From Allostella vacuolata (lineage in GTDB: Bacteria; Pseudomonadota; Alphaproteobacteria; ATCC43930; Allostellaceae): 64,000 nucleotides of DNA. Positions 1 to 44,144 of the stretch are shown here, one piece after another (positions within the stretch are counted from its first letter, which is position 1; each line of letters starts with the position of its first letter). The translations under genes and the position numbers were made by a program. The notes below the pieces were generated by a model that was given only the letters and a program-made list of their open reading frames with translations, was not told the DNA's origin and made no database searches. The stretch lies in assembly GCA_006739055.1 (NCBI GenBank), contig AP019702.1:3683388-3747387 (forward strand). Direction: 5' to 3'.

Positions 1-698
1 GCTTCCCGGGCGCCGCCGCTGTTGCGCGTCTCGATCATCGTATACATGACCTCGTGCAGCCGGACGGTGCCCTTCAGCCCGCCGGCCGCGTGCGAGCGCC
101 GCAGCCACACCGACACCATGTTGAGGACGAAGTTGGCGAGCGTCGCCACCAGTTCGTTCTTGGACGCGCGGTAGATGGCGCGGTGGAAGTCGAGGTCGGC
201 CTCGAGCGCGGCATCGAAATCGGGCGGGTCGACCGCCAGCACGGCGCGCAGCCGCTCGATGCAGGCGCGCATCTCGGCCAGGTCCTCGGGCGTGCGGCGC
301 TGGGCGGCGAGCTCGGCGCAGCTGCGCTCGAAGATGGTCCTGACCTCCATCAGCTTCTGCGGCGTCGTGTCCCGCAGATGGACCTCGAACAGCAGCAGCT
401 GGGCCAGCGACGACTGGGCGCTGCCCGTCGCGACGAAGGTGCCGTGGCCGTGGCGCACCTCCAGCACGCCGGCCGCGGCCAGCACCTTGACCGCCTCGCG
501 GACCGGGGTGCGGCTGACGCCGAGCGCGCGGGCCAGGTCGATCTCGGTCGGAAGCTGGCTGCCGGCCTTCAGGGAACCGTCGGCGATCCGGTCCTTGATA
601 TGGTCGAGCACCACCTCGACCCGGGTCAGCGGTTTCGGTCCGGGCCCATTCGCCGCACGCGCCGGGATGGGGGTTCGGGGGCTGGGGATCGCTTCCAC
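1..698 (-). CDS. GntR/FadR-family (FCD) transcriptional regulator, 3' end outside window
   Basis: The reverse strand encodes an N-terminal winged helix (about residues 25-95, with SRTPVREAVKVL as recognition region and RHGHGTFV as the wing) followed by the start of an all-helical FCD ligand-binding domain containing the metal-ligand-like pattern DLDFHRAIYRAS. The frame runs off the left edge after 232 codons, so roughly the last 10-20 residues are missing. I chose the GTG at 696-698 because an AGAGGA ribosome site lies just upstream; an ATG at 703 is in another frame that stops quickly. It is divergent from the SDR/RuBisCO-like/TRAP operon and is its probable local regulator, responding to an organic or sugar acid. 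Role inferred from position; family assignment is firm. Confidence 0.9.
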   Translation of the reverse strand, partial: MEAIPSPRTPIPARAANGPGPKPLTRVEVVLDHIKDRIADGSLKAGSQLPTEIDLARALGVSRTPVREAVKVLAAAGVLEVRHGHGTFVATGSAQSSLAQLLLFEVHLRDTTPQKLMEVRTIFERSCAELAAQRRTPEDLAEMRACIERLRAVLAVDPPDFDAALEADLDFHRAIYRASKNELVATLANFVLNMVSVWLRRSHAAGGLKGTVRLHEVMYTMIETRNSGGARE

Positions 699-839
699 GG
701 CATCCTCTCGTACAGGCCCGCGCCGGCAGGGCACGCGCACCGCTCCGTCGATGTCTATTTGACAGATAGCCGCAGATCAAGACATCATACCTTTAACGAT
801 CGGTCCTCCCGAAGGGGCCGACGGATGGGAAGGAGCGCC
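699..839 (+). promoter_or_regulatory. Divergent promoter region with candidate operator
   Basis: This 141-bp region separates the GntR gene from the catabolic operon. A TTGACA box lies at 759-764. About 20 bp downstream is ATCATACCT (784-792), and the same nine bases recur at 1613-1621, just before the RuBisCO-like gene. The shared word may be a half-site for the adjacent FadR-type regulator. No clear -10 hexamer at ideal spacing was found, so promoter placement is tentative. Confidence 0.35.
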
Positions 840-1601
840 ATGGCCGACCAGGAGTCGGAGTTCGCCGGCCGCGTCGCGCTGGTCACCGGCGGCGCGCGCG
901 GCATCGGCCGCGCCTGCTGCCTGCGCCTCGCCCGGGGCGGGGCACGGATCGCGCTGAACTATGCCGGCAACCATGCTGCGGCGGCCGAGACCCGGGCGAT
1001 GGTCGAGGCGGCGGGCGGCGTCTGCGAGACCTTCCAGGCCGATGTCGGCGACGAGGCGGCCTTCGCCGACGCGGTCGCCCGGATCGGCGACCGGCTCGGG
1101 CCGGTCGACCTGCTGGTGGCCAATGCCGGCACCACGGCGCTGCGCGACCATGCCGACCTGACGCTGGCCCAGTGGCGCGAGACCATGCGCGTCAACCTCG
1201 ACGGCACCTTCATCAGCATCGCCCAGGTGAAGGACGGGATGCTGGCGCGCGGCTTCGGGCGCATCGTCTGCATCAGCTCGGTGGCGGCGCTGCGCCCCAA
1301 GGCCCGGCAGATCGACTATGCCGCGGCCAAGGGCGGGGTCATCGCCATGATGCGCTGCTACGCCGAGGCGCTGGGGCCGGCGGTGCGGGTCAACGTGGTC
1401 GCCCCCGGCCCGACCGAGACCGACATGCTGGGCGCGCTCGACGCGGCCCCCCTGGCGGCCCGGGTCGCCGCCATGCCGATGCGGCGGCTGGGCACGCCGG
1501 CCGACATCGCCGAGGCGGTCGCCTTCCTGCTGTCGGAGCGCGCCGCCTACGTCACCGGCCAGACGATGGTCCTGGCCGGCGGCGAGGTGATGACGCCCTG
1601 A
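840..1601 (+). CDS. SDR-family NAD(P)-dependent oxidoreductase
   Basis: A 253-residue classical short-chain dehydrogenase/reductase. The nucleotide-binding motif TGGARGIG is at residues 16-23, NAG at 95-97, and the catalytic S147, Y160 and K164 are all present. The length is standard for a classical SDR. The ATG at 840 follows GGAAGGAG. It probably oxidises or reduces a hydroxyl or keto group of the compound imported by the TRAP system further down the operon; the substrate cannot be read from sequence. It is the first gene after the divergent regulator, 38 bp before the RuBisCO-like gene. Confidence 0.9.
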   Translation: MADQESEFAGRVALVTGGARGIGRACCLRLARGGARIALNYAGNHAAAAETRAMVEAAGGVCETFQADVGDEAAFADAVARIGDRLGPVDLLVANAGTTALRDHADLTLAQWRETMRVNLDGTFISIAQVKDGMLARGFGRIVCISSVAALRPKARQIDYAAAKGGVIAMMRCYAEALGPAVRVNVVAPGPTETDMLGALDAAPLAARVAAMPMRRLGTPADIAEAVAFLLSERAAYVTGQTMVLAGGEVMTP

Positions 1602-1639
1602 TACCGCGAAAGATCATACCTCATACCGATGGCGACCGA

Positions 1640-2899
1640 ATGTCGGACGAAATCCGCGCCCACTACCTGATCGAGACGCCGCTGCCGGTGGAGCAGGCGG
1701 CCGCCGCCATCGCCGGCGAGCAGTCGACCGGCACCTTCATGAAGCTGGCGTCGGAATCCGACGCCGTGACCGCCCGCGCCGGCGCCCGGGTCGCCCGGAT
1801 CGAGCGCATCGCGGAGGTTCCGACGCCCAGCCTGCCCGGCGCCCGCACCGGCTCGCGCGCCCGCTACACCCAGGCCCGGATCGAGATCGTCTGGCCCTAC
1901 GCCAATGTCGGCCCGGACCTGTCCACCCTGATGGCGACCGTCTGCGGCAACCTCAGCGAACTGAGCGAGCTGTCCGGCATCCGCCTGCTGGACGTCGAGC
2001 TGCCGCGGGCCTTCGTCGACGCCTTCCCCGGCCCGCGCTTCGGGGTCGAGGGCACCCGGGCGCGCTTCGGGCTCGCCGCCGTGCCGGCGATCGGCACCAT
2101 CGTCAAGCCGAGCATCGGCCTGCTGCCGGAGGAGACGGCACAGGTCGTGGCGGAGTTCGCCGAGGGCGGCATCGACTTCATCAAGGACGACGAGCTCAGC
2201 GCCAACCCGCTGTTCGCGCCGCTGGAAGCCCGCATCGCCGCGGTCATGGGCGCGATCGACCGCCATGCCGACCGCACCGGCAAGCGGCCCATGTTCGCCT
2301 TCAACATCTCGGGCGACCTCGACCAGATGCGCCGCGGCGCCGAGGCGATCGTCAAGGCCGGCGGCGACTGCGCCATGCTGAGCCTGAACTGGGTCGGCAC
2401 CCCGGCGGTGCTGGCGCTGCGGCGGGAGTTCCCGCTGTTCATCCATGGCCACCGCAACGGCTGGGGCCTGTTCTCGCGCGCGCCGATGCTGGGGCTGGAC
2501 TATCGCGTCTACCAGCTGGTCCACCGCCTGGCGGGCGTCGACCACATCCACGTCAACGGCCTGCGCAACAAATTCTCCGAGAGCGACGCCTCGGTCCTGG
2601 ATTCGGCCCGCGCCTGCCTGGCGCCGCTGTTTCCCGGCGACCGGCGGGTGATGCCGGTCTTCTCCAGCGCGCAGACCGTGCTGCAGGTGCACGACACCTA
2701 TGCCGCACTCGGCTCGGCCGACCTGATCTACGCCTGCGGCGGCGGCATCGTCGGCCATCCCGACGGCATCGCCGCCGGCACCCGGTCGCTGCGCGCGGCC
2801 TGGGAGGCGGCGGCGGCCGGCATCCCGCTCGCCCAGGCCGCGCGCGAGGACGCCGCCCTCAGGCGCGCGGTCGAGACCTTCACCCAGCATATCCGCTGA
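1640..2899 (+). CDS. RuBisCO-like protein (form IV-type), probable sugar-acid catabolic enzyme
   Basis: A 419-residue member of the RuBisCO large-subunit superfamily. The barrel Lys is kept in IVKPSIG (K156), and the metal/carbamate motif GGIDFIKDDE keeps K182, D184 and E185. FIHGHRNG matches the HGHR region of RuBisCO-like proteins. The second active-site Lys of TxKPKxG is Ser here, and loop 6 reads GLRNKFSES instead of the canonical Lys-containing loop, so it should not be a carboxylase. Known relatives are enolases or isomerases of methionine salvage and decarboxylases of oxo-isoapionate phosphate. No kinase or methylthio-sugar gene is nearby, so I do not assign either. It sits between two SDR genes upstream of paired small proteins and a TRAP transporter. 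Confidence 0.85.
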   Translation: MSDEIRAHYLIETPLPVEQAAAAIAGEQSTGTFMKLASESDAVTARAGARVARIERIAEVPTPSLPGARTGSRARYTQARIEIVWPYANVGPDLSTLMATVCGNLSELSELSGIRLLDVELPRAFVDAFPGPRFGVEGTRARFGLAAVPAIGTIVKPSIGLLPEETAQVVAEFAEGGIDFIKDDELSANPLFAPLEARIAAVMGAIDRHADRTGKRPMFAFNISGDLDQMRRGAEAIVKAGGDCAMLSLNWVGTPAVLALRREFPLFIHGHRNGWGLFSRAPMLGLDYRVYQLVHRLAGVDHIHVNGLRNKFSESDASVLDSARACLAPLFPGDRRVMPVFSSAQTVLQVHDTYAALGSADLIYACGGGIVGHPDGIAAGTRSLRAAWEAAAAGIPLAQAAREDAALRRAVETFTQHIR

Positions 2900-2918
2900 C
2901 CGGCGGCGAAACCGCCGG
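2900..2918 (+). repeat. Small hairpin after the RuBisCO-like gene
   Basis: Perfect 7-bp inverted repeat CCGGCGG / CCGCCGG with a CGAAA loop directly after the stop codon. There is no T-tract, so it is more likely an mRNA processing or stability element than a full terminator. Confidence 0.4.
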
Positions 2919-2946
2919 CAGCCCAGCAACCGGGACGGAAACGAAG

Positions 2947-3741
2947 ATGGCAAGGCGTCTGGAAGACAAGGTGGCACTGGTGTTCGGCGCGGGCTCGGTC
3001 GGCGAGGGCTGGGGCAACGGCAAGGCGTCGGCCGTGCTCTACGGCCGCGAGGGCGCGAAGGTCGCCTGCGTCGACATCAACCTGGATGCGGCCGAGCGCA
3101 CCCGCGCGATCATCGAGGGCGAGGGCGGCACGGCGATCGCGCTGCAGGCCGACGTGGTCAAGCTCGACCGCGTCCGCGAGGTGGTCGACACGGTGAAGGA
3201 GACGTTCGGGCGCATCGACGTGCTGCACAACAATGTCGGCATGAACATCGAGGGCGGCCCGGTCGAGACCACCGAGGAGCAGTGGGACCGCGTCATGGCG
3301 GTCAACCTGAAGAGCATGTTCTTCACCTGCAAGTGCGTCCTGCCGATCATGGAGGCGCAGGGCAACGGCGCGATCGTCAACATCTCTTCGCTCGCCTCGA
3401 TCCGCTGGATGCACTTCAACTACATCTCCTATTACGCATCGAAGGCGGCGGTGAACAACTTCACCCGGGCGATCGCCCTGCAATATGCCGAGAAGGGCAT
3501 CCGGGCGAACACGGTCCTGCCCGGCCTGATGGACACCCCGCACATCTACCAGGCGATGAAGGACCACTATTCGGACTTCACCGAGATGCAGCAGCAGCGC
3601 GCCGCGGTGACGCCGATGAAGCGCATGGGCGACGGCTGGGACATCGCCCATGCCGCGCTCTTCCTGGCATCCGACGAGGCCCGCTACATCACCGGCATCG
3701 ACCTCTGCGTCGATGGCGGCCTGCACTGCAAGACCCACTGA
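2947..3741 (+). CDS. SDR-family oxidoreductase with expanded glycine-rich loop
   Basis: A 264-residue short-chain dehydrogenase. The cofactor loop is the extended form GAGSVGEGWGNGKA (about residues 14-27), not the usual TGxxxGxG; this longer form occurs in a subset of SDRs. NNVG is at 95-98 and the catalytic S148, Y162 and K166 are present. It follows the RuBisCO-like gene by 47 bp and is one base from the next gene, so it belongs to the same transcript. With the first SDR it gives the operon two separate redox steps. Substrate unknown. Confidence 0.9.
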   Translation: MARRLEDKVALVFGAGSVGEGWGNGKASAVLYGREGAKVACVDINLDAAERTRAIIEGEGGTAIALQADVVKLDRVREVVDTVKETFGRIDVLHNNVGMNIEGGPVETTEEQWDRVMAVNLKSMFFTCKCVLPIMEAQGNGAIVNISSLASIRWMHFNYISYYASKAAVNNFTRAIALQYAEKGIRANTVLPGLMDTPHIYQAMKDHYSDFTEMQQQRAAVTPMKRMGDGWDIAHAALFLASDEARYITGIDLCVDGGLHCKTH

Positions 3742-3742
3742 G

Positions 3743-4174
3743 ATGAGCGGCAGCACGCCCGACTTCGTGATGGAGCGGCTGGTGGTGGAACGGCTGGCCG
3801 ACCGCCACGTCGTCGCGGTCGACACCATCGCCCACCTCAAGCCCGAGGATGCGGGCCAGGTGGTGATGACCGGGTCCCATGGCGGCATCAGCTCCGGCGA
3901 GTATGCCGGGCGGGTGCCGATCGCGGCCGTCTTCTTCAACGACGCCGGCATCGGCAAGGACGCGGCCGGCATCGCCGCCCTGCCCTATCTCGAGACGCTC
4001 GGCATCCTCGCCGGGACCGTCTCGCACGACAGCGCGCTGATCGGCAACGCCCAGGAGACCTGGCAGCACGGCGTCGTCTCAGCCGTGAACCCGCGGGCCC
4101 GGGCGGCCGGCTTCCGCGCGGGCGAGCCGGTCGCCTCCGCCGTCCGCCGCGTCTTCGGGGAGCCCCGGCCATGA
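3743..4174 (+). CDS. Small protein of unknown function, SHGG paralogue A
   Basis: A 143-residue soluble protein without signal peptide or membrane segment that I do not recognise. Conserved-looking blocks are TGSHGGISSG, FFNDAGIGKDAAG and VSHDSALIGNAQETW, rich in Ser, His, Asp and Lys and suggestive of an active site. The next gene encodes a clear paralogue with the same blocks in the same order and overlaps it by 4 bp (ATGA), implying translational coupling and perhaps a heteromeric enzyme. Placement between the RuBisCO-like/SDR genes and the TRAP importer suggests a step in degrading the imported compound. The ATG at 3743 is one base after the SDR stop. Confidence 0.8.
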   Translation: MSGSTPDFVMERLVVERLADRHVVAVDTIAHLKPEDAGQVVMTGSHGGISSGEYAGRVPIAAVFFNDAGIGKDAAGIAALPYLETLGILAGTVSHDSALIGNAQETWQHGVVSAVNPRARAAGFRAGEPVASAVRRVFGEPRP

Positions 4175-4566
4175 GGAACGAGACCGTCGCCGAAATCGCC
4201 GGCCGCCGTGTCGTCCTGATGGACTCGATCTCGCTGATCGCAGGCGGCGACGCCGGGGCCGTGATCGTCTGCGGGTCGCATGGCGGGCTCATCTCCGGCG
4301 CCTTCGCGGCCCTGCATCCGCCGCATCTGGTGCTGTTCAACGACGCAGGCGGCGGCAAGTGCTGCGCCGGCACCGCCGCCATCGCCATGCTGGACGCCAG
4401 AGGCATCGCCTGCGCCGCCATTTCCCACGACAGCGCGCGCATCGGCGATGCCGAGGATGCCTGGCGCCACGGCCGCCTGAGCGCGGTCGGCGAGGCGGCG
4501 GGCCGGCTCGGGCTGGCCGCCGGCCAGTCGGTGCGGGATGCAGTTGAAGTAGCCAGCCGCACATGA
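4171..4566 (+). CDS. Small protein of unknown function, SHGG paralogue B
   Basis: A 131-residue soluble protein homologous to the preceding gene product. The equivalent blocks are CGSHGGLISG, LFNDAGGGKCCAG and ISHDSARIGDAEDAW. The invariant residues of the pair are SHGG, FNDAG, GK and SHDSA..IG. Paralogue B has a CC dipeptide where A has DA, so the two copies are not interchangeable. Start and stop overlap (ATGA) with the upstream gene supports equimolar production. Family and function are unknown to me; a two-subunit enzyme made by gene duplication is the simplest reading. Confidence 0.8.
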   Translation: MRNETVAEIAGRRVVLMDSISLIAGGDAGAVIVCGSHGGLISGAFAALHPPHLVLFNDAGGGKCCAGTAAIAMLDARGIACAAISHDSARIGDAEDAWRHGRLSAVGEAAGRLGLAAGQSVRDAVEVASRT

Positions 4567-4621
4567 AACCGTGCGGCGCAACGGCCCGGAACGGGCCATC
4601 GACCATGGGAGGAACCAGACC

Positions 4622-5614
4622 ATGACCATCATGCAGACCAGGACCAGGGCGGCCATCGCCGCGCTGGCGCTCGGCCTCGGCCTGGGCGGCGCGGGTGCCG
4701 CCCAGGCGATCGATCTCGGCTTCGCCCTGCACACCTCGCCGCCCGGGCCGGAGTTCGAGGCGGTCAACAAGTTCGTCGAGCTGGTGAAGGAGCGCAGCAA
4801 GGGGCAGATCAACGTCAAGATCTTCCACTCGGCCGTGCTCGGCGGCGAGCGCGACAACCTGGAGCAGCTGACCGTCAACCAGGTGCAGATGACCCTGTTC
4901 GGCGACACCCTGCCGAACGTGGTGGCGCCCGAATATGCCGCCACCGTCGTGCCGTTCGTCTTCCCGGGGCCGGAGGAGGTGTTCGAGTTCTGGGCGGGCC
5001 CGGCCGGCACCGAGGGCAAGAAGGTCATCAAGTCGAAGGCCAAGCTCGACGTGGTGGCGTTCTTCCGCCGCGGCGACCGGCACCTGTCGGCCAAGAAGGC
5101 GATCCGCACCCCGGACGACCTGAAGGGGCTGAAGCTGCGCGTGCCGGAGATCCCGTCCTGGGTCCGCGTCTGGTCGGAGCTGGGTGCGCGGCCGACCCCG
5201 GTCGCCTGGCCGGAAGTGTTCAGCGGCCTGCAGATGGGCGTGGTCGAGGCACAGGAGAACCCCTGCTTCAACGTCAACCAGGCCAAGCTCTACGAGGTGC
5301 AGTCGCACATCATGTACACCGCCCACGTCCCCGCGGTGTGGCACTGGACGATCAGCTCGGTCTTCCTCGACAGCCTGAAGCCGGAGATCCGCGAGGCGGT
5401 GATCAGCTCCGCGGTCGATGCCGCCAAGCACGGCGACGCGGTGACCAAGACGCAGATCGACGCGGTCTGCGACGCGCTGGTGACCAAGAGCAAGATGACC
5501 GCGGTCAAGGTCGACCGCGCGCCCTTCATCGCCAAGGCGCGCCCCGCCATCGACGAGCTGTCCAAGAAGTGGGCGCCGATCGTGGTCGAGGCGGCGTCCA
5601 AGTACCTGAAGTAG
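4622..5614 (+). CDS. TRAP transporter substrate-binding protein (DctP type)
   Basis: A 330-residue periplasmic binding protein. The first 29 residues form a Sec signal peptide ending AAQA before IDLGFALHTS. The mature part has the DctP layout, including HSAVLGGERDNLEQL near the N-terminus and the conserved Arg of LKLRVPEIPSW, which normally contacts a substrate carboxylate. GGGAGGAA precedes the ATG. The membrane subunits follow after a stable hairpin. The ligand should be an organic acid, in keeping with TRAP systems, and is presumably the substrate of the upstream enzymes. Confidence 0.9.
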   Translation: MTIMQTRTRAAIAALALGLGLGGAGAAQAIDLGFALHTSPPGPEFEAVNKFVELVKERSKGQINVKIFHSAVLGGERDNLEQLTVNQVQMTLFGDTLPNVVAPEYAATVVPFVFPGPEEVFEFWAGPAGTEGKKVIKSKAKLDVVAFFRRGDRHLSAKKAIRTPDDLKGLKLRVPEIPSWVRVWSELGARPTPVAWPEVFSGLQMGVVEAQENPCFNVNQAKLYEVQSHIMYTAHVPAVWHWTISSVFLDSLKPEIREAVISSAVDAAKHGDAVTKTQIDAVCDALVTKSKMTAVKVDRAPFIAKARPAIDELSKKWAPIVVEAASKYLK

Positions 5615-5626
5615 CCCTGTCGGGCC

Positions 5627-5658
5627 GGCGGGGCGGCGTCTCCGGATGCCGCCCCGCC
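5627..5658 (+). repeat. Strong hairpin between dctP-type and dctQ-type genes
   Basis: Perfect 11-bp inverted repeat GGCGGGGCGGC / GCCGCCCCGCC around a 10-base loop, starting 13 bp after the DctP stop codon. There is no T-run. Its position suggests a 3' stabiliser or partial terminator that makes the binding protein more abundant than the membrane subunits. The second TRAP operon of this window has one in the same place (18467-18494). Confidence 0.6.
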
Positions 5659-5693
5659 TTCGCCTCGGGTGCGGCCGGAATCCAGGGGTCGAA

Positions 5694-6197
5694 ATGGAAT
5701 CGCTGCGCGGGATCCGACGGATCCTCTTCTACCTGTTCGAGGTCCTGGCGATCACGACGTTCCTCGTGATGCTGGCCTCGTCCATCCTCCAGGTCTTCTT
5801 CCGCTACGTCCTCGACATGCCGCTGCAATGGACCGAGGAGCTGGCGCGCCTGATGTGCGTGCTGACCACCTATTTCGGCAGCATCGTCGTGATCCTGGCG
5901 CGCGAGCATATCCGGGTCGACCTCGTCGACGGGCTGATGTCCGGCCGGCCGCGGCAGCTGCTCAACCTCTTCGTCGACCTGCTGATCGCCTGGTTCCTGG
6001 TCTCGGTCGCCTATGGCTGCTGGCTGCTCATGAACGCGACCTGGACGACCTATACCGCGACCATGGACTGGTTCCGCATGGGCTACATCTATGCCGCCGT
6101 CGGCGTGTCCATGGCGGTCATGACCTTCCTCGTCGTCCTCGACATGTATGACCGGGTCCTGGCGCTGGCCGCCGGCGGCAGGGAGGGCCGGGCATGA
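5694..6197 (+). CDS. TRAP transporter small permease (DctQ type)
   Basis: A 167-residue inner-membrane protein with four predicted hydrophobic segments, the usual DctQ topology. The motif QWTEELARLMCV at the first cytoplasmic loop is typical of the family (W-x-E-E). The ATG at 5694 gives normal length. Its stop overlaps the start of the large permease by 4 bp, implying coupled synthesis of the two membrane subunits. Confidence 0.9.
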   Translation: MESLRGIRRILFYLFEVLAITTFLVMLASSILQVFFRYVLDMPLQWTEELARLMCVLTTYFGSIVVILAREHIRVDLVDGLMSGRPRQLLNLFVDLLIAWFLVSVAYGCWLLMNATWTTYTATMDWFRMGYIYAAVGVSMAVMTFLVVLDMYDRVLALAAGGREGRA

Positions 6198-7483
6198 TCC
6201 TCTCGATCTTCCTGGGGGTGCTGGTCCTCCTCTTCGCCATCGGCATCCCGGCCGCCTTCTCGCTCGGCCTGACGTCGCTGATCGTCACCGTCTATGAGCG
6301 CGGGATCGACGGCATCCCCTACACGATCCTCGCCCAGCGCATGGTCTATGGCGTGAACAGCTTTCCGCTGCTGGCGATCCCGTTCTTCATCCTGGCCGGC
6401 AAGATCATGAACACCGGCGGCATCACCGACCGGATCTACGACTTCGCCCACCGCCTGACCGGCCATCTGCGCGGCGGCCTGGGGCAGGTCAACATCGCCG
6501 CCTCGATCATCTTCTCGGGCATGTCCGGGTCGGCGGTGGCCGACGCGGTCGGCGTCGGCCAGATCGAGATCCGGGCCATGCGCCAGGCCAACTACCCCGA
6601 CGACTTCTCGGTCGGCGTCACCGCGGCATCCGCCACCATCGGGCCGGTCATCCCGCCCAGCATACCGCTCATCATCTATGCGGTGGTCGCCAACGTGTCG
6701 GCGACGGCGCTGCTCATCGCCGGCATCCTGCCCGGCCTCCTGATGGGCGCGCTGCTGATGGCGCTCGTCGCCTACCAGGCCCGCCGCCGCAACCTGCCGG
6801 TGGAGAAGTGGCAGGGCCTGGCCGCCCTCTACCGCAGCTTCCTGCGGGCGCTGCCGCCGCTGATGACGCCCGCCATCATCATCGGCGGCATGATGACCGG
6901 CGTCTTCACCCCGACCGAGGCGGCGGCGGTCGCGGCCGTCTATGCCCTCGTCATCGCCATGCTGGTCTACCGCGAGATCAGCTTCGCCGGCCTGGTCCGG
7001 GTGCTGCGCGAGACGATGCGCGAGACAGCGATCATCATGATCATCGTCGCCGCGGCCGCCCTCTATGGCTGGCTCCTGGTGTTCACCCAGCTGCCGCAGC
7101 AGCTGGTCGGGCTGGTGGACGGGCTCGGCCTCGACCCGGTGATGCTGCTCCTGGCGATCAACATCTTCCTGCTCGTCATGGGCCTGTTCATGGAGACCAA
7201 CGCCGCGATCACCATCTTCACGCCGATGCTGCTGCCGCTGGCGGTGGCGGCCGGGGTAGACCCGGTGCATTTCGGCATCATCATGGTGCTGAACCTGATG
7301 ATCGGCCTGCTGACGCCGCCGGTCGGCATGGTCCTGTTCGCGGTCGCCAAGGTGGCGGACGTGCCGATCAACAGGGCGATCGTCGCGATCGCGCCCTACT
7401 ATGTGCCCTTGATCGTGTCGCTGCTGCTGGTGACGTACTTCCCGTCGATCACCATGGTGCTGCCCAACCTGCTGCTGAGATAG
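6194..7483 (+). CDS. TRAP transporter large permease (DctM type)
   Basis: A 429-residue protein with about 12 hydrophobic segments, the standard size for DctM. It shows the glycine/serine-rich hairpin SGMSGSAVADAVGVG and the IGPVIPPSIPLIIY stretch of the family. It is the last gene of the operon and is followed 26 bp later by a rho-independent terminator. With the DctP and DctQ genes it forms a complete Na+- or H+-driven tripartite uptake system. Confidence 0.93.
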   Translation: MILSIFLGVLVLLFAIGIPAAFSLGLTSLIVTVYERGIDGIPYTILAQRMVYGVNSFPLLAIPFFILAGKIMNTGGITDRIYDFAHRLTGHLRGGLGQVNIAASIIFSGMSGSAVADAVGVGQIEIRAMRQANYPDDFSVGVTAASATIGPVIPPSIPLIIYAVVANVSATALLIAGILPGLLMGALLMALVAYQARRRNLPVEKWQGLAALYRSFLRALPPLMTPAIIIGGMMTGVFTPTEAAAVAAVYALVIAMLVYREISFAGLVRVLRETMRETAIIMIIVAAAALYGWLLVFTQLPQQLVGLVDGLGLDPVMLLLAINIFLLVMGLFMETNAAITIFTPMLLPLAVAAGVDPVHFGIIMVLNLMIGLLTPPVGMVLFAVAKVADVPINRAIVAIAPYYVPLIVSLLLVTYFPSITMVLPNLLLR

Positions 7484-7579: not shown

Positions 7580-7789
7580 TCAGGCCGCCTTGAGCTGGCC
7601 GGCCGAGACCTTGCCGCTGCGGCTGTCCCGCTCCAGCTCGAAGTTCAGCTTCTGGCCTTCATGGATCGCACCGAGGGTCGAGCGCTCGACGGCCGAAACG
7701 TGCACGAACACGTCGGCGCCGCCGTCCTCCGGCTGAATGAATCCATAGCCCTTCTGGCCGTTAAACCACTTTACCGTTCCGATAGCCAT
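7580..7789 (-). CDS. cspA: Cold-shock domain protein (CspA family)
   Basis: A 69-residue single cold-shock domain. RNP1 (KGYGFIQ) and RNP2 (VFVHVS) are both intact, as is the N-terminal GTVKWFN strand. It binds single-stranded RNA/DNA and acts as an RNA chaperone. I use the ATG at 7789 with GGAAG upstream; an in-frame start further out would add 14 residues not normal for the family. It is monocistronic, ends at the shared terminator, and has a long gene-free upstream region where a structured leader could lie. Confidence 0.95.
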   Translation of the reverse strand: MAIGTVKWFNGQKGYGFIQPEDGGADVFVHVSAVERSTLGAIHEGQKLNFELERDSRSGKVSAGQLKAA

Positions 7790-8117: not shown

Positions 8118-8528
8118 ATGAGAGACAAGGAGACGAGCTTGGCCGAGCGGCTGAGTTCGGCCACGAAGGCAAAGCAGGCATTGCTGGAACGCGCCCGGGC
8201 GAAGTCGCCCGCCAACGACCCGGGCTTCGCCGAGCGCCAGGCTGCCCGCGCCGCCGCCGAACTGGCCCGCGAAGCCCGCCTGGCCGAGAAGAAGGCCGAG
8301 CGTGCGGCCGAGGCACAGCGAGCGGCCGAGGCCAAGGCCGCGGAAGAAGCCGCCCGCATGATCGCCGAGAAAGTCGAGGCCGAAGCCCGCGCGCTGGCCG
8401 AGCAGGCCGACGCCGAGGCCCGGCGGCTGGCCGAGATCGAGGAAGCCGAACGCGCCGTGCAGCTGGAGGCCGAACAGAAGGCCAAGCGCGACGCCCGCTA
8501 CGCGGCCCGCAAGGCGCGCCAGCGGTAG
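8118..8528 (+). CDS. DUF6481-type coiled-coil protein
   Basis: A 136-residue highly charged protein, almost entirely Ala/Glu/Arg/Lys heptads from about residue 35 to the end, predicting one long helical coiled coil; the block FAERQAARAAAELAREARLA fits the DUF6481 family of alphaproteobacteria. There is no signal peptide or cysteine. Function is not known. The ATG at 8118 follows GGAG; longer in-frame starts upstream run through non-repetitive sequence and are unlikely. It lies next to cspA, but no joint function is established. Confidence 0.75.
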   Translation: MRDKETSLAERLSSATKAKQALLERARAKSPANDPGFAERQAARAAAELAREARLAEKKAERAAEAQRAAEAKAAEEAARMIAEKVEAEARALAEQADAEARRLAEIEEAERAVQLEAEQKAKRDARYAARKARQR

Positions 8529-8535
8529 GGACGGT

Positions 8536-9045
8536 TCAGGACGAGGCGGCGGGTGCTTTCTCCTCCGCCCCGTTCACCGCCTTGCGGGCGACGTGCTCCA
8601 GCCGGCCCAGGACCGTCAGCACCAGGATCGCCAGCACGACCGCGATTCCCGCCAGCGCGGCGTAGCCGGCACCGCAGGCGAGCCCGAGCGCGCCCGCGAG
8701 CCAGATGCCGGCGCCCGTCGTCATGCCCCGCACGGAGCCTCGTCCCCGGACGATGGCCCCCGCGCCGAGGAACGCCACGCCGGCGGTCACCGCCTCGATG
8801 ATGCGGATCGGGTCGGTCGACCCGTCGGGCTGGGTGGCGGCGGCGTCCAGGTGCAGCTCGGCGGCCAGGATGGTGAACGTGGCGGCCGCCAGCGCGATCA
8901 GCATGTGCGTGCGCAGGCCGGCCGACTTCTGCCGCCATTCGCGATCGAGGCCGATGCATCCGCCGAGCAGCAGCGCCGCGCCGAGGCGCACGGCGATGAC
9001 CTCCGGCGGCGTCGCCATGATCTCGAAGATGACGGGATCACGCAT
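8536..9045 (-). CDS. MgtC/SapB-family membrane protein
   Basis: A 169-residue protein with four to five hydrophobic helices. The family signature IGLDREW.QKSAGLRTHML is present (residues about 31-48), as is GVAFLGAGAIV.. in the middle. MgtC proteins support growth in low Mg2+ or affect the F-ATPase, but many homologues are uncharacterised. A second in-frame ATG at 9018 would remove nine residues and is equally plausible. Its start overlaps the end of a small upstream open frame. Confidence 0.85.
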   Translation of the reverse strand: MRDPVIFEIMATPPEVIAVRLGAALLLGGCIGLDREWRQKSAGLRTHMLIALAAATFTILAAELHLDAAATQPDGSTDPIRIIEAVTAGVAFLGAGAIVRGRGSVRGMTTGAGIWLAGALGLACGAGYAALAGIAVVLAILVLTVLGRLEHVARKAVNGAEEKAPAASS

Positions 9046-11911: not shown

Positions 11912-13249
11912 CTATTCGGCAGCCGGGGCCAAGCCCCGATGCAACTCCCAGCTTTCCCGGAACGCCTGGCTGGTGGCCTCGGGCGGGGCGACCGGCAGGT
12001 CGGCCGCCCAGCGCGCCTCGGCCGCCGCCGCCTCGGCCCAGCATTCGCCGACCAGGCGGGCCGCCTCCTCGCCCGGTGCCGGCCCGAGCCCGGCGACGCG
12101 CGCGGCGAAGCGGGTCTCCATCGCATCCCGCTCGCCGCCGATGGCGCGCAGCGCCGCGGCGTGGTCGCCCAGCACGGCCCGGCGATGCAGGCGCTCGTGG
12201 CGCCACCACAGGCTCGCATCGTCGGCGGCGCCGGTCGGCTGGGGGCCGTGCGGGGGCAGGCCCGACTGGAACAGCACCGGCTTGAAGATCGACAGGCACG
12301 GCGCCGAGGTGCCGGTCACCCAGTAGATGCCCGGCCTGTCCGGATGCAGTTCCGCCACCAGCGAGCCGACGCTCTGCCCGCGGCGCAGCCCGGCGCCGGC
12401 ATGCATGCAGATGGCCCGCGTCGTCGAGCGGTCGGGGTGCCAGTCGGCCGTGCCGTCGGCTTCTGCGCCGTGGTCGCGCAGGGTGGCCATCATGTCCGCC
12501 GCCGTCAGCCGCCCGTCCCTGCGCTTGAGCAGGGTGGTGGCGCGCGCGCAGCGCAGGCGACCGCGGCTCTGCGCGTCGCGCTCCAGGTCGATGTAGGATT
12601 CCGCGAAGTCGAGGTCGGCCGCGTCCCGGCACCAGCCCTGGGCCCGGGCATGCTCCACCAGGCCGCCGCCTGCCTGCGAGATGCGGCCGCGCCCGATCGA
12701 CAGCGCATTGGATATGGCGCGGACCGGCGGGCAGCGCTCGACCGCCCACATGCGGCCGACCGTCTCCAGCACGAAGGCGTCGGTCGCATCGGCGATGAGG
12801 AACGAGTTGTCGTAGAAATGCTCGTGGCGATGGCCGCAATTGCCGCCCTGTCCGTGCGCCTCCAGCAGCCCGGTGATGACCGCGACCGCCTCCGCCGCGG
12901 TGGCGGCCCGCTCCAGCCCCAGCCGGACCAGGTCCATGCCGATCAGGGCCGGCGTGCGGCCGGGCGGCAGGGTGGCGAACACCGCCTCATTGCCGATCAC
13001 CACCCCGTGCTCGTTGGCCCCCATCTCCGCGCCCCACAGCCAGTAGGGGCGGCTCAGCAGGACGGCGTGGGTGCGGGCCGCCTGGGGGATATCGATGTAG
13101 GTGCAGCGCAGCCCGGCCCCCTCGGCATGGCGCGCGGCCGGCACCAGGTCGAGGAACTGCGCCTCGTCCCGCTCGCGGTCGCTGTTCTTGGCGAAGAGCA
13201 CTACCCCACCGGCCGTAGCCGGCGGCAGGGCCACCATCGTGTCACACAT
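11912..13249 (-). CDS. C69-family (secernin-like) dipeptidase
   Basis: A 445-residue protein beginning MCDTMVALPP, with Cys2 in position to become the N-terminal nucleophile after Met removal, as in the Ntn-hydrolase fold of C69/secernin proteins. FAKNSDRERDEAQ and the central NALSIG segment also match the family. No signal peptide, so it is cytosolic. The ATG at 13249 is fixed by the need for Met-Cys; longer in-frame starts are rejected. It lies 67 bp downstream of the PEPC-like gene on the same strand and may be read from it or from its own promoter. Confidence 0.88.
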   Translation of the reverse strand: MCDTMVALPPATAGGVVLFAKNSDRERDEAQFLDLVPAARHAEGAGLRCTYIDIPQAARTHAVLLSRPYWLWGAEMGANEHGVVIGNEAVFATLPPGRTPALIGMDLVRLGLERAATAAEAVAVITGLLEAHGQGGNCGHRHEHFYDNSFLIADATDAFVLETVGRMWAVERCPPVRAISNALSIGRGRISQAGGGLVEHARAQGWCRDAADLDFAESYIDLERDAQSRGRLRCARATTLLKRRDGRLTAADMMATLRDHGAEADGTADWHPDRSTTRAICMHAGAGLRRGQSVGSLVAELHPDRPGIYWVTGTSAPCLSIFKPVLFQSGLPPHGPQPTGAADDASLWWRHERLHRRAVLGDHAAALRAIGGERDAMETRFAARVAGLGPAPGEEAARLVGECWAEAAAAEARWAADLPVAPPEATSQAFRESWELHRGLAPAAE

Positions 13250-42354: not shown

Positions 42355-43254
42355 CTACCGGCCCCTGCTCCCTTCCCTGTTCAGCCCCGCCATCGTCTCC
42401 AGCACCAGGGCGACCGCGGCGGTGTCCTGGTTGCCGTAGCCCGACGCGACCGCCGCCTGGAACAAGGGCGCGCAGGCGGCGAACATCGGCGTCGGGCAAC
42501 CCAGCGTCGAGGCGAAGTCGGCGATCACCCTGAGGTCCTTGCGCCACAGGTCGAGCGGCATGGTCTCGACCGGCAGGTAGCGGTCGGCGATCAGCATGTT
42601 GCCCCGCACCTGCAGGGCGCGCGATCCGCCGGCGCCGTCCGCCACCACCTCGAACATCTGCGCCGGGTCGAGCCCGGCCTTGCGGGCGAGCGCGAACGCC
42701 TCGCCCGCCGCCACCGTGTGGATCGCCACCAGCAGGTTGGCGACGTACTTCATCCGCGAGCCGTTGCCGAACACGCCCAGGTAGTGGGGGGCCCGGGAGA
42801 AGCCGTGGAAGACGGTCAGGCAGCGCTCCCAGGCGTCCCGCGGGCCGCTGCCATAGACCAGCACGTCGCGCGTCTTCGCCTGGCTGCCGGACCCGGACAG
42901 CGGGCAGTCGAGCATGGCGATGCCGATGGCGGCCAGGTCCCGCTGCGCCCGCTCCTTGTCGTCCAGCGCCAGCGTGCTGGTCTCGGCCAGGATCCGGTCG
43001 CCCGGCGGCAACGCCGCCAGGTCGGCGATCACCGCGTCCAGCGCGGCCGCCGACGGCAGGCAGGTCAGGATGACCTCCGCTTCCGTCGCCGCCTCGGCGG
43101 CCGAGGCGGCGAGCTGCCCGCCCATCTCCTCGAAGGCCGCCCGCGCGGCCGGCTCCGGGTCGTACCCATGCACCGAGAAGCCGTCGGCGATGAGATTGCG
43201 GCTCATGGCGGAGCCCATGATGCCGAGGCCGATCATGGCGACCGGCGTGCACAT
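42355..43254 (-). CDS. NAD(P)-binding beta-hydroxyacid dehydrogenase family protein, copy 1
   Basis: A 299-residue enzyme of the 3-hydroxyisobutyrate/tartronate-semialdehyde reductase family. The Rossmann motif GLGIMGSAMSRNL is at about residues 9-21, the substrate motif appears as DCPLSGSGSQA, and the catalytic Lys is in GNGSRMKYVANLL. The substrate motif differs from the usual DAPVSGG, so the substrate may be atypical. Five bp separate it from a second copy upstream. Confidence 0.9.
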   Translation of the reverse strand: MCTPVAMIGLGIMGSAMSRNLIADGFSVHGYDPEPAARAAFEEMGGQLAASAAEAATEAEVILTCLPSAAALDAVIADLAALPPGDRILAETSTLALDDKERAQRDLAAIGIAMLDCPLSGSGSQAKTRDVLVYGSGPRDAWERCLTVFHGFSRAPHYLGVFGNGSRMKYVANLLVAIHTVAAGEAFALARKAGLDPAQMFEVVADGAGGSRALQVRGNMLIADRYLPVETMPLDLWRKDLRVIADFASTLGCPTPMFAACAPLFQAAVASGYGNQDTAAVALVLETMAGLNREGSRGR

Positions 43255-43259
43255 CGCCG

Positions 43260-44144
43260 CTACTCCTTGCGCCCGGCCCAGTAGGCCGGCAGCTCGGTGC
43301 AGTCGCGCCCGCCCCAGCCGTCGCGGCTGGCCTGGTCGTAGACCGCCAGCGTACGCTCGGCGATCGGCAGCTCGAAGCCGCGGCCGTGCGCCTCGGCGAC
43401 CATGGTGCGCAGGTCCTTGCGGATCGAATCGCAGTCGAAGGTGGCCGAGCCGGATTCCGCCGTCGCCAGCGCCTTGGCAACCGCGCCGCCGCGCGCCTTC
43501 AGGACGTTGGGCCCGCCGGAGGTGTCGGCGAACAGCTCGACCAGCCAGCCGCGGTCGACGTCCAGGTGGCTGCACAGCGCATAGGCCTCGCCGAACGCCT
43601 GCCAGAAGACCGCGAGCGGCAGGTTGATCGCCAGTTTCATGCTGGCGCCCGCGCCGACCGGCCCGACATGGTCGACCCGCCGGCAGAGCTGCTCCAGGAC
43701 CGGCCGCGCCCGGGCGACATCCGCCGCCGCGCCGCCGGCCAGGCCCAGCAGCTTGCCCTGCAGCGCCGGGCCGACGGTGCCGCCGACCGGGCATTCGACC
43801 AGCGTGGCGCCGGCCGCGGCGACGCGGGCGGCGAGCGCGGTCTCGACCTCCGGCCGCACCGTGCTCATCTCGATGAAGAGCTTGCCGGCGACGTCCCCGG
43901 CCAGCAGGCCGTCCGCGCCGCCATAGACCGCATCGATCGCCTCGGCGTCGGTGACGATGGTGATGACCGCGTCCGCCGCCCCGGCCAGCGCCCGCGGGCT
44001 CCCGGCGACCGTCGCACCGGCCTCGGCCAGCGGCTGCGTGCGCAGGGCGGTGCGGTTCCACACCGTCACCTCGTGGCCGACATCGATCAGCCGGCGGGCG
44101 ATCGCCGCCCCCATCCGGCCCAGGCCGGCTACTCCGATCTTCAT
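43260..44144 (-). CDS. NAD(P)-binding beta-hydroxyacid dehydrogenase family protein, copy 2
   Basis: A 294-residue paralogue of the following gene, with low identity. GLGRMGAAIARRL is the nucleotide motif, ECPVGGTVGPA the substrate loop and GAGASMKLAINL the catalytic-Lys segment. Two divergent copies side by side suggest two different oxidation steps in the same pathway rather than redundancy. Confidence 0.9.
   Translation of the reverse strand: MKIGVAGLGRMGAAIARRLIDVGHEVTVWNRTALRTQPLAEAGATVAGSPRALAGAADAVITIVTDAEAIDAVYGGADGLLAGDVAGKLFIEMSTVRPEVETALAARVAAAGATLVECPVGGTVGPALQGKLLGLAGGAAADVARARPVLEQLCRRVDHVGPVGAGASMKLAINLPLAVFWQAFGEAYALCSHLDVDRGWLVELFADTSGGPNVLKARGGAVAKALATAESGSATFDCDSIRKDLRTMVAEAHGRGFELPIAERTLAVYDQASRDGWGGRDCTELPAYWAGRKE

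Follow-up and report, generated by a model that had tools for sequence, protein, structure and literature searches.

Which substrate is served by a RuBisCO-like protein (RLP) whose gene stands between those of two short-chain dehydrogenases (SDRs), in one operon with a TRAP importer? This question is raised by a locus of Allostella vacuolata located in a 64-kb stretch of DNA (the window; bases 3683388-3747387 of the single-contig 5.83 Mb genome). At window positions 840-7483, eight genes on the plus strand encode SDR1, the RLP, SDR2, two small proteins termed X1 and X2, and the transporter proteins DctP, DctQ and DctM; neighboring genes are separated by -4 to 79 bases. RLPs show how RuBisCO chemistry has been reused, and only a handful are characterized according to PMC10176493, which also mentions an oxygenase role with reference to Kim et al. 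Inspection of the DNA letters had produced a gene list, which could be confirmed in full, and a proposal that the operon serves an undescribed pathway for a sugar or branched acid, which was based in part on the absence of a kinase (the original prediction). We consider it likely that the genes of the locus serve to break down a sugar acid, as yet unassigned and probably branched or carrying several hydroxyl groups, by the kinase-plus-RLP logic of the D-apiose type.

The OiaK-OiaX branch of D-apiose catabolism was reportedly described by Carter et al. in 2018, and an RLP of the D-hamamelose pathway is said to have been described by Kim et al. in the same year. PMC6302742 describes two kinds of RLP reaction on 3-oxo-isoapionate-4-phosphate, decarboxylation and transcarboxylation/hydrolysis, for enzymes from A. 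radiobacter K84 and X. autotrophicus. PMC11747546 reports growth on D-apiose of a strain with apiose genes, including those for an oxidoisomerase, a kinase and a decarboxylase. According to PMC8914248, the hamamelose genes of Ochrobactrum include one for an RLP, and the route yields 3-phosphoglycerate and glycolate. A literature search (open-licence papers, judged by their listings) returned nothing describing the present operon or the X proteins.

A kinase gene adjoins the operon

When the genome was searched with PF07005, two DUF1537 kinase genes were found, and one lies directly beyond the left window edge. This gene begins 82 bases before the first base of the window (at base 11918 of the longer piece L034, where window base 1 is base 12000) and comprises 436 codons plus a stop codon. 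Its ATG shares one base with the stop codon of a GntR-type regulator gene; therefore, regulator and kinase are probably cotranscribed, divergently from SDR1. The kinase scored 146.5 bits against PF07005 (SBD_N) and 80.5 bits against PF17042 (NBD_C), exceeding both cut-offs (25 and 28.3). Its best NCBIfam model was OiaK (NF042436) with 257.4 bits, where the cut-off of 700 was not reached.

The original prediction had found no kinase and had taken this as a sign of a new kind of RLP chemistry. The missing kinase was an artefact of the window edge: its gene lay outside the DNA that had been read, so the argument fails, and the conclusion drawn from it is not upheld. The chemistry probably follows the known order of kinase, then RLP, on a new substrate, since the kinase adjoins the operon, OiaK is its closest model and 20 of the 21 RLP-bearing loci with relatives of X (see below) carry a kinase of this type.

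The second DUF1537 kinase gene of the genome (C1:2838769-2839449(+), piece L035) encodes a protein with 256.8 bits to SBD_N; genes upstream of it resemble amino-acid ABC transporter genes as judged by eye.

The operon is conserved in Bosea-genus genomes

In three Bosea-genus genomes (L036 and L037, found via the X scan, and L179, found via the RLP search), all ten genes recur with order and orientation unchanged; hence, the operon is more than a chance grouping, and the suggested comparison of gene neighborhoods supported its reality. The Bosea-genus order is kinase-GntR divergent from SDR1-RLP-SDR2-(TSR-like)-X1-X2-DctP-DctQ-DctM-(HpaI-type). The two genes in brackets, encoding a protein like tartronate semialdehyde reductase (TSR; 333.4 bits, cut-off 340.75) and an HpaI-type aldolase (146.9 bits, cut-off 368.8), are absent from the window operon; gene content, order, orientation and the upstream motif described below are otherwise alike. 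Identity to the three Bosea-genus operons amounts to 70-73% for SDR1, 89-90% for SDR2 and 83-86% for the RLP. More distant SDR2 relatives (57-65% identity; L077, L058, L050, L067) also sit in loci with an RLP/kinase or X.

An RLP with at least 80% identity was found in 3 of 67 Bosea-genus genomes, 46 of which have some relative at E ≤ 1e-90. None was found among 42 other genomes of the order to which the window belongs, including three of its genus; one of the 42 has a relative with 53% identity. This patchy distribution suggests horizontal transfer at some time. Base composition gave no sign of a recent transfer, the operon having 69.6% G+C and 6.6-kb tiles 70.9 ± 1.3%.

The RLP is placed outside the OiaX group

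The window RLP is the sole RuBisCO_large match in the genome, and its nearest solved structure by sequence is 3nwr, annotated as 'a rubisco-like protein'. Its best NCBIfam model is OiaX (NF042437), named 3-oxo-isoapionate-4-phosphate decarboxylase, with 431.8 bits against a cut-off of 700. Twenty RLP relatives scored with the same model, one of them of the window type, all remained below the cut-off (385-550 bits). When 397 genomes sampled from the Bosea order were searched, 67 gave a match at E ≤ 1e-90, and 25 of these exceeded the cut-off with 757.8-791 bits. Thus, true OiaX proteins form a tight group inside a broad family, the relatives matched in this one order being a large and mostly unassigned set.

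A tree of 60 rows was calculated from three window-type, 13 OiaX and 39 other RLP rows together with five RuBisCO rows. It used 13 of the 25 OiaX members above the cut-off and omitted 14 of 19 RuBisCO rows; as in a first tree containing no OiaX rows, RLP pieces shorter than 330 residues (L006, L038, L039) and L041, which has an over-long envelope, were omitted. The window RLP and two Bosea proteins formed a clade with support of 100/100. The 13 OiaX rows formed a separate clade, also at 100/100, and the window RLP lies outside it. The fork holding all 55 RLP rows apart from RuBisCO reached 94/95, just under the starred level of the tool; in the first tree, the OiaX-like RLP superclade was set apart from RuBisCO at 98/99. 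The window RLP is 42-44% identical to OiaX rows, 46-56% to the 39 other relatives and 29-30% to the five RuBisCOs.

Close clustering with a characterized RLP had been named as evidence that would speak against a new pathway. For OiaX such clustering was not found, as the window RLP stands in its own clade; OiaX was the one characterized RLP covered by this comparison, whose rows included neither the transcarboxylase/hydrolase of Xanthobacter nor the RLP from the hamamelose genes of Ochrobactrum. Position in the tree and bit score support a protein outside the characterized OiaX group, with an unassigned substrate. The proposal of an undescribed acid pathway is thereby retained in part: the acid operon and the separate RLP stand, and the argument that it works without a kinase falls.

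Three assignments of the RLP were rejected. Orthology to OiaX is excluded by 431.8 bits against 700 and by the separate clade, an MtnW enolase by 140.9 bits against 513.6 and 170 against 409, and a carboxylating RuBisCO by 232.1 bits against the 497.45 required by the RuBisCO III model and by Ser158 in place of K177. A role in methionine salvage or CO2 fixation has next to no chance on these scores, and neither an mtn nor a Calvin-cycle enzyme was found among the operon proteins; what speaks for such a role is the RuBisCO fold and, according to PMC8914248, the altered growth and 14C-bicarbonate uptake of Rhizobium RLP mutants.

Several genomes carry two or three different OiaX-like RLPs, for example G388 with the Stappia locus L063, which suggests several substrates per organism.

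The RLP keeps RuBisCO-type active-site residues

Residues were counted in an alignment of the same 60 rows, and we take the numbering of spinach RuBisCO and the residue roles known by it as the reference for equivalent sites. All catalytic-site equivalents are kept in the window RLP: K156 (K175), K182 (K201), D184 (D203), E185 (E204), H271 (H294), R272 (R295) and K311 (K334). Also kept are H304 (H327), S342 (S379), N104 (N123), E27 (E60), T32 (T65), G368 and G369. Replacements are S158 for K177, S343 for G380, A344 for G381 and F33 for W66.

K156, K182, D184 and E185 had been recognized correctly from the letters, as had the absence of the second lysine of the KPK motif, where Ser158 stands. 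K177 is replaced in 13 of 13 OiaX rows and 38 of 39 other relatives; its loss is therefore a family trait. A canonical loop-6 lysine, in contrast, had been reported as lacking, and this turned out to be wrong: K311 is present, and its column holds lysine in 3/3 window-type and 52/52 other RLP rows. It aligns with K334 in two of the five RuBisCO rows; for the other three, the aligner set the lysine one column off.

R272, H304, S342, G368 and G369 are presumably the equivalents of the phosphate-binding residues of RuBisCO, and their conservation argues against an RLP that would need no kinase because its acid substrate is not phosphorylated, as the original prediction had envisaged. Such an enzyme is very improbable, given that the kinase directly adjoins the operon and is kept in all four window-type operons. 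In its favor, the plus-strand genes of the operon include no kinase, and for an RLP of Paraburkholderia sprentiae (L121) a kinase was neither annotated nor detected within 7 kb, in a plasmid gene table that is incomplete.

The equivalents of E60, N123, H327 and S379 separate the two RLP groups. They are kept in the window-type rows and in 39 of 39 other relatives, whereas D, G, Q and C/G occupy these sites in the 13 OiaX rows. As the window RLP is separate from OiaX and keeps the RuBisCO-type residues, C-C cleavage of a 3-oxo-acid phosphate is favored over decarboxylation, and the window RLP probably does not simply decarboxylate. An OiaX-like decarboxylation of the 3-oxo-acid phosphate, with the ketose phosphate then cut by an HpaI-type aldolase and a TSR acting downstream, is possible if doubtful. 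The decarboxylase name of the OiaX model and the TSR-like and HpaI-type genes of the Bosea-genus operons fit this route; the residues changed in OiaX and kept here, and a window operon devoid of aldolase and TSR genes, do not.

Related clusters and known substrates

The operon is related, at some distance, to the sugar-acid pathways that combine a kinase with an RLP, namely that for D-apiose and, reportedly, that for D-hamamelose. It shares with the OiaK-OiaX branch of D-apiose catabolism a DUF1537 kinase and an RLP, there acting on a phosphorylated 3-oxo sugar acid, and the models of this branch are the best NCBIfam models for both proteins. It differs in that both proteins score far below the cut-offs, SDRs take the place of a PGDH_C-type oxidoreductase, a TRAP importer and X1/X2 are present, and the active-site set is another one. 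The D-hamamelose RLP, compared by its description, reportedly belongs to a branched-sugar route to 3-phosphoglycerate and glycolate.

PGDH_C-type oxidoreductases, which we take to be D-apionate oxidoisomerases, are part of several related clusters. A search with PF16896 gave no match in the window genome, the control genomes of that search all being negative, too; the identical search was positive in four of five relatives. Because PGDH_C was not found in the genome, the SDRs probably make the 3-oxo acid in the window operon. In further searches, glyoxylate carboligase gave 12 matches, all below the cut-off, and TSR reached at best 305 bits with a cut-off of 340.75.

Haloarchaeal clusters resemble the window operon in gene content. 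Plasmids of Haloterrigena (L032) and Natrinema (L031) carry genes for TRAP proteins, an aldolase, an SDR, X, an RLP, a kinase and a PGDH_C-type protein, and Natronosalvus (L028) has X, RLP, kinase and SDR; thus RLP, DUF1537 kinase, SDR and X occur in all three. TRAP genes are annotated in L031 and L032, with none shown for L028. Unlike in the window, X is a single two-domain protein there, the RLP belongs to another clade, and a PGDH_C protein was detected in L032 and is annotated in L031. In Lichenicoccus (L072), the genes for RLP, kinase, PGDH_C-type protein and X lie in a row, and at L050, L058 and L067 a gene of the BKACE type (beta-keto acid cleavage) accompanies those for an SDR2 relative, RLP, kinase and X.

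Alternatively, the operon could encode a divergent D-apionate or D-hamamelonate pathway for a known substrate; its RLP would then correspond to OiaX, to the transcarboxylase/hydrolase of Xanthobacter or to the RLP for hamamelose. We regard this as unlikely, considering that the RLP reaches 431.8 of the 700 bits required for OiaX and is 42-44% identical to OiaX rows, that the models matched by the ten operon proteins include neither a Gfo/Idh dehydrogenase nor a lactonase, that PGDH_C was not found, and that a TRAP importer speaks for uptake of an acid rather than of a free sugar. For a known substrate speak OiaK and OiaX as best models, the Ochrobactrum RLP mentioned above, and SDRs that could serve as sugar or sugar-acid dehydrogenases. 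Furthermore, the row next to the window clade in the 60-row tree, with weak support (81/62), is L116 from Phyllobacterium, whose cluster of Gfo/Idh, PGDH_C-type, RLP, kinase and sugar ABC genes is a D-apiose-like set.

Proposed pathway

Gene content, the neighboring kinase, the conservation of the operon, the residues, the phylogeny and the motif are direct observations, from which the substrate, all reactions and the regulation are inferred. For an unassigned sugar acid as the substrate, we propose the following sequence. DctPQM would import the acid, and one or both SDRs would convert it by oxidation into a 3-oxo (beta-keto) acid, taking the role that a PGDH_C-type oxidoreductase has in the related clusters. 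The divergent DUF1537 kinase would then phosphorylate a terminal hydroxyl group. The resulting 2-hydroxy-3-oxo-acid phosphate would be cleaved by the RLP via a metal site formed by carbamylated Lys182, Asp184 and Glu185, with Lys156 and the loop-6 residue Lys311. Judging by the residues retained, this C-C cleavage would proceed by hydrolysis or transcarboxylation and yield 3-phosphoglycerate and a small hydroxy acid, in place of a decarboxylation of the OiaX type. X1 and X2 may form a two-domain helper or an enzyme acting on the keto acid. That the importer marks an operon for organic-acid catabolism had been proposed from the letters and is supported; Pfam and NCBIfam models identified DctP, DctQ and DctM as a complete TRAP transporter.

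Several points weigh against this proposal. The kinase and the RLP score far below the OiaK and OiaX cut-offs, so another substrate class is possible; conversely, the gene set of L116 favors a known one. Neither SDR reached an equivalog cut-off among the 25 NCBIfam models shown for each, and the step given to them is a guess from their family. The choice between hydrolase and decarboxylase has the residue comparison as its one source, and the pathway may instead continue by aldol cleavage because the Bosea-genus operons carry TSR-like and HpaI-type genes. Finally, X has no assigned chemistry, and 59 of the 80 X loci described below have no RLP in the DNA covered. As the operon is a compact, conserved unit with its own binding protein for one RLP class, its substrate is directly testable.

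X1 and X2 belong to a widespread family

X1 and X2 are the least explained and most original element of the operon. They are 44% identical to each other and had been called novel, which is borne out: neither matched an NCBIfam or Pfam model at E ≤ 0.001, and the one Pfam hit of X1 at E ≤ 5 had an E-value of 0.011, below the cut-off. A tblastn search at E ≤ 1e-3 found eight plasmid records with X1 and six with X2, all six within the eight. GTDB representatives were scanned with a single peptide pattern, which yielded 349 stretches; 310 of these were confirmed and 80 kept, and the following counts refer to these 80 loci. The X profile, which contains both proteins by construction, scores X1 with 169.9 and X2 with 154.8 bits. 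One X domain was present in 66 loci and two in 14, one of the 14 being weak. X1 plus X2 correspond to single two-domain proteins in haloarchaeal and other genomes, including L028-L033.

The neighbors of X vary. An RLP was found at 21 loci, a kinase at 23 and both at 20, a PGDH_C-type gene at 18 (15 with RLP) and TRAP relatives at 17, where absences may reflect short contigs. Clustering of the neighbors revealed BKACE-type genes (PF05853) at 10 loci, six of them with RLP, as well as genes of thiamine diphosphate (ThDP) enzyme type (7), IlvD/EDD type (12) and TctC type (8). One to three members per cluster were confirmed by Pfam, for BKACE three, two of them from RLP loci. The window genome contains a second X pair in one open frame (C1:404229-405023(-); L185, about 8230-9015) adjoining a ThDP enzyme gene, with TRAP-like genes and a BKACE gene nearby. 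Thus, X is a companion of organic-acid catabolism generally and not of RLPs alone. Conversely, X is not needed for every RLP, as no X domain was found within 7 kb in ten RLP plasmid regions (L116-L125).

An alignment of 76 rows from most, not all, of the 80 loci was used for structural analysis. Invariant or nearly invariant are S45, H46, G47, D67, G69, G71, K72, H95 and N116, which look like an active site. AlphaFold predicted X1 with pLDDT 93.6 and pTM 0.88, and a fused X protein with 86.0 and 0.80. Foldseek searches of the PDB found no match at E ≤ 0.001 for either model (best E-values 0.14 and 0.46), and at the sequence level neither X1 nor X2 had a PDB hit with E below 0.1. It is conceivable, if less likely than not, that X1/X2 represent an undescribed enzyme family, possibly with an unsolved fold, whose substrates would be 3-oxo (beta-keto) sugar acids or organic acids of a similar kind; it may have been recruited repeatedly beside RLPs, beta-keto acid cleavage and ThDP enzymes, here with a new RLP class performing RuBisCO-like C-C cleavage without carboxylation. 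A family present in bacteria and haloarchaea that has no Pfam or NCBIfam model at threshold, and a confident structure model without a significant structural match, make X a separate prize.

At L075, L076, L091, L099, L101, L109 and L115, X genes occur with TctC-type binding proteins and a fusion protein of the FAD/FMN type, whose one examined member combines FAD_binding_3 with Oxidored_FMN. This gene set points to a pathway for aromatic or other acids without RLP.

Upstream motif and regulation

The 21-base sequence AAGACATCATACCTTTAACGA is identical upstream of SDR1 in the window and the three Bosea-genus operons, and TTGACA is common to all four. Allowing up to three mismatches, AAGACATCATACCTTTAACGA has one match in the 64 kb and none in 100 shuffles; a promoter-like scan of positions 600-900 found one site with 0.0 expected. 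The core ATCATACCT occurs twice in the window, both times inside the operon region (upstream of SDR1 and in the SDR1-RLP gap), and its central part TCATACC recurs upstream of the RLP gene in L036, L037 and L179. Inverted repeats of at least 8 bases with arms within 30 bases were not found in three divergent regions.

The divergent regulator had been assigned to the FadR type, in agreement with LldR, GlcC and NanR as the best NCBIfam models of this minus-strand GntR gene. We propose that GntR binds at the motif sites; it would probably repress both transcripts via the conserved ATCATACCT sites as long as neither the acid nor an intermediate is available.

Features of the locus

Coordinates and identifying evidence are listed in Table 1. 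Furthermore, SDR2 passes the broad NCBIfam subfamily model NF005559 'glucose 1-dehydrogenase' with 219.6 bits (cut-off 215).

Table 1. Features of the A. vacuolata locus; positions refer to the window unless stated otherwise.
Feature	Position	Strand	Evidence
DUF1537 kinase	genome 3681996-3683306 (L034:10608-11918), wholly outside window	-	Pfam SBD_N, NBD_C
GntR/FadR-type regulator	1..713, continues past left window edge	-	frame translation; NCBIfam LldR 102.3, GlcC 95.8, NanR 92.9 bits, all below cut-off
Promoter/operator-like conserved block	759..799	+	TTGACA at 759, AAGACATCATACCTTTAACGA at 779-799
SDR1, short-chain dehydrogenase	840..1601	+	Pfam adh_short_C2 183 bits
Second ATCATACCT core copy, SDR1-RLP gap	1613..1621	+	two copies in window, both in this operon
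RLP, 419 aa	1640..2899	+	Pfam RuBisCO_large 221.6 bits
SDR2, short-chain dehydrogenase	2947..3741	+	Pfam adh_short_C2 211.2 bits
X1	3743..4174	+	domain of about 125 residues; no Pfam/NCBIfam model at threshold
X2, tandem relative of X1	4171..4566	+	44% identity to X1; 4-base overlap with X1 end
DctP, TRAP solute-binding protein	4622..5614	+	Pfam DctP 201 bits
DctQ, TRAP small permease	5694..6197	+	Pfam DctQ 88 bits
DctM, TRAP large permease	6194..7483	+	Pfam DctM 426 bits; TIGR00786 446.5 bits, cut-off 268.45

The operon is followed on the opposite strand by a gene resembling those for cold-shock proteins as judged by eye (window 7580-7789 (-)). Two adjoining genes at window 42385-44144 (-) encode proteins like beta-hydroxyacid dehydrogenases, with 148.5 and 124 bits to the TSR model (cut-off 340.75), and a frame upstream of this pair was named amidohydrolase-like by eye.

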